From: Panulirus ornatus
Lineage: Eukaryota > Arthropoda > Malacostraca > Decapoda > Palinuridae
Length of the DNA: 64,000 nucleotides
Reading direction: 5' to 3'
Assembly: GCF_036320965.1 (NCBI RefSeq)
Contig: NC_092225.1
Coordinates: 52,933,868-52,997,867, forward strand
Position numbers and translations under genes: made by a program. Shown in pieces: positions 9,301 to 12,300 of this stretch (positions are counted from its first letter, which is position 1; each line of letters opens with the position of its first letter). A model generated the notes under the pieces. It was given only the letters and a program-made list of their open reading frames with translations, was not told the DNA's origin and made no database searches.

Positions 9301-12300
9301 TAAGCACTACCACTCAACAATGCTACCTCAAAGGTCCTTATATTTACAAAATCTGACTCAACGAAATTCCTTCATCAATAAATTTACCACAACACTCATA
9401 ACAATGACACGTAATTACTAGATAAGTCGTAATATTTACAAAACATGAAGTAGAAATGTCTTTAACAATGAGATTATGTACTGTACTTACCAGACGGTCT
9501 TATGTAAACGTACATTAATGAAGTGGGAAGTGTACTGGTACTTACCATGAGGTAGTGTACTGGTACTTACTGGGTATACTGTACATCCAGGGGTAGTGTA
9601 CTGGTACTTACCATGAGGAGTAGTGTACTGGTACTTACCATGAAGGGTAGTGTACTGGTACTTACCATGAGGGTGTAGTGGTACTGCTTACCATGTGGGG
9701 TAGTGATGGTACTTACCATGAAGGGTAGTGTACTGGTACTTACCATGAGGGTGTGTATGTACTGTACTATAAGGGTGACTGGTATGTACATGGGATACCA
9801 AGGGGTAGTGTACTGGTACTTACCATGTGAGTGTAGGTAGTTACCTGGTATTACCTATACATGGGGGGGTGTACTGGTACTTACCATGAGGGGTAGTTAT
9901 GGTACTTGTGGTATTACCATAGGGGTAGTGTACTGGTACTTACCATGAGGGGTAGTGTACTGGTACTTACCATGAGGGGGTAGTGTACTGGTACTTACCA
10001 TGAGGGGGTAGTGTACTGGTACTTACCATGAGGGGTAGTGTACTGGTACTTACCATGAGGTGTAGTGTACTGGTACTTACCATGAGTAGTGTACTGGTAC
10101 TTACCATGAGGGGGTAGTGTAGTGGTACTTACCATGAGGGGTAGTGTACTGGTACTTACCATGTGGGGTAGTGTACTGGTACTTACCAGGAGGGGGTAGT
10201 GTACTGGTACTTACCATGAGGGGTAGTGTAGTGGTACTTACCATGAGGGGGTAGTGTACTGGTACTTACCATGAGGGGTAGTGTACTGGCACTTGCCATG
10301 AGGGGTAGTGTACTGGTACTTACCATGAGGAGTAGTGTACTGATACTTACCATGAGGGGTAGTGTACTGGGTACTTACCATGAGGGAGTAGTGTACTGGT
10401 ACTTACCATGAGGAGTAGTGTACTGGTACTTACCATGAGGGGTAGTGTACTGTACTTGCCATGAGGGGTAGTGTACTGGTACTTACCATGAGGGGGTAGT
10501 GTACTGGTACTTACCATGAGGGGGTAGTGTACTGGTACTTATCATGAGGAGTAGTGTACTGGTACTTACCATGAGGAGTAGTGTACTGGTACTTACCATG
10601 AGGTAGTGTACTGGTACTTACCATGAGGGGTAGTGTACTGGTACTTACCATGAGGGGTAGTGTACTGGTACTTACCATGAGGGGTAGTGTACTGGTACTT
10701 ACCATGAGAAGTAGTGTACTGGTACTTACCATGAGGGGTAGTGTACTGGTACTTGCCATGAGGGGTAGTGTACTGGTACTTACCATGAGGGGGTAGTGTA
10801 CTGGTACTTACCATGAGGGGTAGTGTACTGGTACTTACCATGAGGGGTAGTGTACTGGGTACTTACCATGAGGGGTAGTGTACTGGGTACTTACCATGAG
10901 GGGTAGTGTACTGGGTACTTACCATGAGGGGTAGTGTACTGGTACTTACCATGAAGGGTAGTGTACTGGTACTTACCGTGAGGGGTAGTGTACTGGTACT
11001 TACCATGAGGGGTAGTGTACTGGTACTTACCATGTGGGGTAGTGTACTGGTACTTACCATGAGGAGTAGTGTACTGGTACTTACCATGAGATGTAGTGTA
11101 CTGGTACTTACCATGTGGGGTAGTGTACTGGTACTTACCATGAGGAGTAGTGTACTGGTACTTACCATGAGGAGTAGTGTACTGGTACTTACCATGAGGG
11201 GTAGTGTACTGGGTACTTACCATGAGGGGGTAGTGTACTGGTACTTACCATGAGGGGTAGTGTACTGGTACTTACCATGAGGAGTAGTGTACTGGAACTT
11301 ACCATGAGGGGTAGTGTACTGGTACTTACCATGTGGGATAGTGTACTGGGTACTTACCATGAGGGGTAGTGTACTGGTACTTACCATGAGGGGTAGTGTA
11401 CTGGTACTTACCATGAGGGGTAGTGTACTGGTACTTACCATGAGGGGTAGTGTACTGGTACTTACCATGAGGGGTAGTGTACTGGTACTTACCATGAGGG
11501 GTAGTGTACTGGTACTTACCATGAGGGGTAGTGTACTGGTACTTACCATGAGGGGTAGTGTACTGGTACTTACCATGAGGAGTAGTGTACTGGTACTTAC
11601 CATGAGGGGGTAGTGTACTGGAACTTACCATGAGGGGTAGTGTGCTGGTACTTACCATGAGGGGTAGTGTACTGGTACTTACCATGAGGGGTAGTGTACT
11701 GGAACTTACCATGAGGGGTAGTGTACTGGTACTTACCATGAGGGGTAGTGTACTGGTACTTACCATGAGGAGTAGTGTACTGGTACTTACCATGTGGGGT
11801 AGTGTACTGGTACTTACCATGTGGGATAGTGTACTGGTACTTACCATGAGGGGTAGGGAGCTGGGTCTGTGTGGGGGCTTGGCGTCCATGGTACCATAAC
11901 CCACGCTGCCATCCTCAGCCATGCCCTGCGGCTCCAGGGTCTGCTGCTCCGTCGACAGCGCCTGCGGCAGGAGAGGTGAATCCCCGGAGGGTGGGCGGGG
12001 GCGTTAGTTAGTTAGTTAGTTAGTAAGTTAGTTAGTTCATTAGTTAGTTTTAGTTAGTCTCCTCAGTCATAACCTGGATGTTCGAGTCTGCTGGTGTCTT
12101 TGTTAGCGAGGTAAGGTGCTTGGGTGGTTAAGATGGATTGTTACGGTGTTAGCCACTTGTTCGGATGGCTTAATTGGTCGTTGCTGCTTGTGGGTTAGAT
12201 ACATTGTTGGGCGGTGTCAGAGAGGGAGGTGTTAACTGGCGGTTAGGTAGTTATGTTTGTGTGAGGTGAGGTTACATGATGAGATGGGTCTACGGTCGTC

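Follow-up and report, generated by a model that had tools for sequence, protein, structure and literature searches.

The end of one coding exon in an SLC45-type transporter gene of Panulirus ornatus has been multiplied together with its donor splice site. Behind this exon (exon F) we found a 27-bp minisatellite of about 85 copies (9536..11856, minus strand; all positions refer to the window, which is the whole stretch of 64,000 nucleotides that was analysed). Each unit consists of 12 exon-derived and 15 intron bases, and 76 copies carry GTAAGT. The array is very probably a neutral minisatellite that was born at the exon boundary and that is tolerated since the exon-proximal donor is still used. 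Exon F (11845..11961, minus strand) comprises 117 nt in phase 0, and its translation is identical to the annotated protein of this species (P0001). It is preceded by the acceptor CCGCAG and followed by the donor GTAAGTAC. The exon end at 11845 reads CTACCCCTCATG, and these last 12 bases, which encode LPLM, supply the exon-derived share of the repeat unit. The following intron opens with GTAAGTACCAGTACA, and exon end and intron start together form the 27 bases that are repeated head-to-tail on the minus strand down to about position 9536. The series is headed by the real donor ATG|GTAAGT (11839..11847, minus strand), from which P0001 continues into exon G (8200..8319, minus strand), its next exon. 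A first-pass annotation had described about 80 tandem donor copies, a unit in which exactly the last 12 coding bases are joined to 15 intron bases, and a real donor that heads the series. All of this agrees with the exon F sequence, with our unit counts and with the start of the array at the exon end.

Tandem repeats finder (TRF) described the array with a period of 27, 83.3 copies (9589-11856) and a score of 3660. When the interval 11856-9536 was subjected to wraparound alignment, 86 units were obtained, 85 of which matched the consensus at 20 or more of the 27 bases. The same interval holds the 76 GTAAGT motifs and 73 copies of ATGGTAAGT, the 9-mer of the real donor. Over most of the array the copies are near identical, but below about position 9930, at the far end, they are degenerate, and some GTAAGT spacings amount to 24-80 bp instead of 27. 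The first unit, which includes the end of exon F, agrees with the array consensus in all 27 bases and thus, the identity between exon and array is not due to chance. Per-position conservation was 96-100% for the donor hexamer, 93-100% for the other intron-derived bases and 79-99% for the exon-derived bases. Since the hexamer is hardly more conserved than its intronic neighbours, these values do not clearly point to selection on the extra donors, and we rejected such selection as an explanation. Upstream of exon G lies an incomplete and decayed copy (8630..8760, minus strand; local alignment score 94) of the stretch in which the intron ends and exon G starts.

The host gene was assigned to the SLC45-type transporters by similarity along its length. 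The best database protein was P0001 (membrane-associated transporter protein-like isoform X2, Panulirus ornatus), which scored 83% with a query that lacked two of the window exons. After the alignment ends had been trimmed to the splice sites, P0001 matched the window exons exactly. Among solved structures, chain 9ghz_A of human SLC45A4 was the best match (E 9.5e-58), and the Pfam families MFS_1 and MFS_2 matched the protein below their curated cut-offs. With P0001 and a crayfish relative as guides, 15 coding exons were placed, which span about 78 kb of a 114-kb stretch; the published P. ornatus genome is 2.65 Gb in size (PMC11193758).

The consequences of using the extra donors were evaluated in a joined F+G reading for all GGTAAGT sites from 11961 to 9480, of which there are 76. 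The last of these sites (9490) lies just past the array, and the GTAAGT at 9570, which is preceded by A, was left out. Nine of the 76 donors, which are the real one and donors 2-9 (11817, 11790, 11763, 11736, 11709, 11682, 11655 and 11628; 11628..11817, minus strand), stay in frame and leave the reading open through exon G, and the remaining 67 lead to a stop. Donors 2-9 would add 27-216 nt, which corresponds to 9-72 residues in frame. A 28-bp unit precedes donor 10, and the unspliced reading frame of exon F is open to 11326. Thus, three further claims of the first-pass annotation (in-frame second to ninth donors adding 9 to 72 residues, a subsequent frame shift by a 28-bp unit, and an open reading to about 11326) were reproduced. 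In contrast, its suggestion that the array might tune or diversify a loop of the transporter was not supported. P0001, which is one gene model, joins SLPLM straight to NGHS and thus uses the first donor. Repeat residues were absent from the exon F junction in all 11 aligned database proteins (P. ornatus and 10 relatives; the alignment left out P0011), and none of the 7,991 candidates scored reached E<=0.001 in a protein search with the repeat segment of the hypothetical long isoform. On the basis of the annotated junction, the relatives' alignment, the frame test and the empty peptide search, we rejected a coding use of the exon F array.

A second donor array was found in the same gene behind exon A (45169..45431, minus strand), which belongs to the TM1-3 region and ends GIIL|G in phase 1. 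This array (44306..45178, minus strand) comprises 22 copies, including the real boundary, of a 40-bp unit (range 37-52), and most units measure 40 or 37 bp. The unit starts with the last 10 exon bases ATTATCCTCG, which are followed by about 30 intron bases that open with the donor (GTAAGTGG...TTTTCATTCAG), and 17 copies retain GGTAAGT. The annotated protein joins GIILG to LILV, so that the first donor is also used in this gene model at exon A. When the first six donors were included in the frame test, the second one added 40 nt and thereby changed the reading frame, and the third to sixth led to a stop, which is also contained in all longer extensions. Only the real donor works in frame and a coding role of the exon A array is therefore very unlikely. 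For the same reason, the divisibility by three of the exon F unit looks incidental. Most of the 40-bp units carry TTTTCATTCAG or a variant of it, which resembles the end of an acceptor, and the array contains 18 TTCAG; each unit therefore resembles a very short intron joined to a micro-exon of some 13-16 bases.

At a third donor of the gene the relation is looser. Exon I (192..322, minus strand) ends KRF with the donor CAG|GTGAGC, and a 30-bp array (1..182, minus strand), which continues for about 650 bp beyond the window edge, starts 9 bp past this donor. It adjoins the donor but contains no clear copy of it. No array was found within 20 bp of the donors of exons B (28514..28622), C (22767..22964), D (16777-16878) and E (16421-16563), all on the minus strand. 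Taken together, three of 14 donors and none of 14 acceptors of the SLC45 gene have an array within 20 bp. A rotation test gave 0.23-0.26 expected donors and P 0.0003-0.0017, depending on the thresholds, with a count that includes the exon F case which prompted the study; exon G2 entered the test with its donor shifted by one base, which has no effect at the 20-bp limit.

Similar boundary arrays occur in other genes. Among matches to the SLC6 family (PF00209), they were present at three of 58 donor ends and at three of 40 acceptor ends (92 ends of each kind in total); in this sample, as in the CPN60/TCP1 sample below, ends are profile ends, several of which have no splice site. Since donors and acceptors are affected alike, these counts show no preference. 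Two of the donor arrays are clear (55+ and 3 copies) and the third is probable (L155, L156 and probably L165). On C19, an SLC6 exon ending FSVLG is followed by an array with 51 copies of TTAGGTAAG in the 2 kb fetched, and the array extends past the end of this segment. On C72, three donors spaced at 35 bp follow an exon that ends MIGIGSQ. On C26, the donor GAG|GTAAGTA has four similar sites behind it, of which two retain GTAAGTA; this case is less certain because the TRF array starts 27 bp past the donor. In four further donor-side stretches (L076, L092, L096, L167) the arrays start deeper in the intron. On the acceptor side, a 59-bp array of 3.4 copies (L124 on C23, 73-264) spans the acceptor TCAG|GTGTGGGC and copies the first exon bases, and two other arrays end within about 20 bp of the acceptor. 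The units of the boundary arrays measure 27, 40, 32, 35, 32 and 30 bp and follow no rule of three. Very long open frames at SLC6 matches had raised the possibility of introns filled by in-frame arrays, but none was found in the six stretches fetched.

The CPN60/TCP1 matches (30 of 55 examined) had arrays near none of the 30 ends of each kind, and their loci contained only three arrays in 99,585 bp (0.6%). In the 114-kb SLC45 stretch, 43 arrays (period of at least 10, length of at least 100 bp) cover 24,857 of 114,000 bp (about 22%) and thus, array density differs strongly between genes. SLC45-like exons at three loci on C14 had no array with a period of 9 bp or more at their ends, and a PF00083 profile search (nine long matches) was left out of the samples. 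Genome-wide, three GGTAAGT at gaps of 10-40 bases were matched 13,538 times, compared with 6,287 times for the reversed pattern, and matches within one array are not independent. The matches listed on C1 form seven array clusters, of which all but a GGTA microsatellite were inspected by eye in three-frame translations, and none of these six GGTAAGT arrays had an evident exon at its edge. Therefore, many GGTAAGT arrays are probably unrelated to exons. A general preference for donors is backed inside the SLC45 gene but not by the SLC6, CPN60/TCP1 or C1 samples. Several arrays that resemble the exon F unit were set aside. About 44 copies of the 21-bp unit CCATGGTAAGTTCCAGTATAC were found on C29 (L014, 2613-3533), but the side upstream of this CCATG|GTAAGTTCCAG array reads N. 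An array on C58 may start at a small exon, and TRF units without a clear donor series were obtained for C17 and C9.

Tandem repeats across exon/intron boundaries have been named mirages in amphioxus (PMC3087553, PMC3902484). They were reported there for Adh3 (units of 10-72 bp), BflGb9 and TnC, with similar repeats in PGBD5, and for the globin gene BflGb6, which has six and three units in two haplotypes. According to these reports, copy number varies between haplotypes, Adh3 shows somatic instability and regular splicing is undisturbed. The lobster arrays resemble mirages in several respects. Their unit spans the boundary and includes exonic bases (12 + 15 at exon F, 10 + ~30 at exon A), it carries the splice signal (76 GTAAGT and 17 GGTAAGT, respectively), and the repeat derives from the real exon, as suggested by nine of 10 relatives for exon A and, more weakly, by eight of 10 for exon F. 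Donors (L155, L156, probably L165) as well as an acceptor (L124) are affected, and the arrays lie in the intron beside the real exon, with an annotated product that uses the regular junction. Because of this anatomy of the units, the lobster arrays most likely belong to the mirage class. They differ in host, as they were found in at least three genes of one spiny lobster genome rather than in a lancelet, and in copy number (about 85, 22 and 55+ compared with 3 and 6 in the BflGb6 haplotypes, Adh3 being excluded from this comparison). Ordinary intronic minisatellites, such as the arrays that account for about 22% of the 114-kb stretch, differ from the exon F unit in that the latter contains an exon end with its donor. 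An origin of introns from tandem arrays or exon duplication was reportedly described by Zhuo et al. in 2007. As in the lobster, tandem duplication multiplies splice signals in the work of Lehmann et al. 2010 (PMC2891723), where it could yield new introns or exons. In contrast, there is no sign of a new intron in the lobster, where the copies occupy an intron that already existed and appear unused.

A neutral origin of the exon F array would involve the following steps. As the sequence shows, a tandem duplication took in the last 12 coding bases, the donor and the 15 intron bases, since the unit is a copy of this boundary, and slippage or unequal exchange would have expanded it to about 85 copies. 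Exon F would be recognised as a unit, and the donor nearest to the upstream acceptor would win. Exon definition is expected here because both flanking introns are kilobases long (4459 and 3525 bp, as calculated from the exon coordinates). On the basis of published rules and the annotated protein, the original exon-proximal donor would thus stay in use and the other 75 would be decoys. Other exon boundaries of this genome have been affected in the same way. The exon F end is conserved in part: SLPL is found in four of 10 relatives and SLPI or SLSL in four more, Homarus has SLPLM, and the isopod and Daphnia sequences differ. For the exon A end, six of 10 relatives have GIILG and three GILLG, and the tenth model is broken there. 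Since relatives without known arrays share much of this coding sequence, the exon probably seeded the repeat and not the reverse. Judged from these alignments, the exon ends are older than the repeats, which is clearer at exon A than at exon F.

The rule that the upstream donor wins derives from the minigene experiments of Carranza, Shenasa and Hertel 2022, in which, of two identical strong donors 52 nt apart, the upstream one was used exclusively under exon definition (PMC9225289). The lobster situation is comparable, as identical donors stand in series under exon definition and the upstream one is expected to win, but it involves 76 natural donors instead of two engineered ones in transfected cell lines. 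For human alternative donors in general, about 60% of the events were reported to prefer the downstream site, and an upstream preference (60%) emerged in the human transcriptome only after matching donor strength (PMC9225289). Therefore, the proximity rule is a tendency outside minigenes, and lobster splicing may depart from it. Two observations speak against the neutral reading: the excess of donors with an array over the rotation expectation hints at something beyond random seeding, and the exon-derived array positions vary more than the donor hexamer. In addition, donors 2-9 may be used at a low level.

We considered four other explanations. The array could be a functional length tuner, with donors 2-9 inserting 9-72 residues of VSTSTLPLM repeats into a cytoplasmic loop. 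The eight extra donors that leave exon G readable, a repeat peptide without stop in that frame and a loop length that varies among decapods would fit such a function. It is nevertheless highly improbable, since the annotated protein uses donor 1, the 10 aligned relatives lack repeat residues, the search with the repeat segment was empty among the candidates scored, 67 of the 76 donors break the reading and the sister array at exon A cannot work in this way. Binding of U1 outside splice sites is known to have effects, and many U1 snRNP sites might either aid recognition of exon F or guard the long intron from premature cleavage and polyadenylation. The density of 76 GTAAGT in about 2.3 kb, the similar array at exon A and a donor hexamer that is somewhat better kept than the exon-derived bases are consistent with such an RNA-level role. 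However, the hexamer barely exceeds the other intron-derived bases in conservation, other boundary arrays have as few as three copies, and some of them sit at acceptors, which makes this role very unlikely. Titration of U1 by the exon F array, which the first-pass annotation had also considered, is unlikely as well. In its broadest form, a functional reading would regard donor arrays as a recurrent feature of this genome, whose U1-dense stretches influence the recognition of exons, the length of transcripts or rare in-frame isoforms, with copy number acting as a heritable splicing dial; we consider this quite improbable.

Splice donors, or exon/intron junctions in general, might also be preferred birthplaces of minisatellites, for instance because of R-loops or stalled transcription. 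The donor excess in the SLC45 gene (three of 14 donors but none of 14 acceptors, with the P-values of the rotation test) and the higher count of the triple GGTAAGT pattern compared with its reversed form argue for this idea. However, the gene test includes the seed case and the pattern matches within an array are not independent. Moreover, the SLC6 frequencies at donor and acceptor ends (3/58 and 3/40), the four SLC6 arrays that start deeper in the intron, the lack of arrays at the CPN60/TCP1 ends and the six C1 arrays without an evident edge exon point in the opposite direction, and we regard the idea as unlikely. Finally, the assembler might have created or inflated the copies, as tandem arrays are hard to assemble and PacBio continuous long reads were merged from two assemblers for this genome (PMC11193758). 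Against such an artefact, the units differ by scattered point changes and indels, the distal end is degenerate, and similar arrays are found at several independent places. An array of 2.3 kb is also short relative to PacBio continuous long reads, and an assembly artefact is extremely unlikely. Thus, we prefer the neutral boundary-born minisatellite.

Among the open-licence PubMed Central papers listed, we found none that reports boundary-spanning minisatellites in crustaceans in its title or abstract. In lancelets, such minisatellites have been suggested to seed new introns (PMC3087553, PMC3902484). With at least three genes affected and copy numbers of up to about 85, the crustacean arrays widen the phenomenon beyond lancelets. 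They also offer a direct test of the proximity rule across the exon, as near-identical donors occur here naturally in sets of 3, about 20, 51+ and 76, which either follow the real donor or contain it.

The window contains additional repetitive elements. A higher-order minisatellite of 33/66/99 bp extends over about 3.4 kb (24213-27616) in the intron between exons B and C. Open frames at 43094-43969, 7296-7865 and other places on the minus strand resemble, as judged by eye from their translations, the reverse transcriptase of non-LTR retrotransposons. Two long 21-bp minisatellites with reverse-complementary units (TCAAGGATCGTACCGTCGTGG) are located head to head, 68 bp apart, at 33030-34144. The TCAAGGATCGTACCGTCGTGG core recurs in three of 39 other loci scanned (L013, L014, L017), so that these repeats appear to form a dispersed family, and they could form long hairpins.
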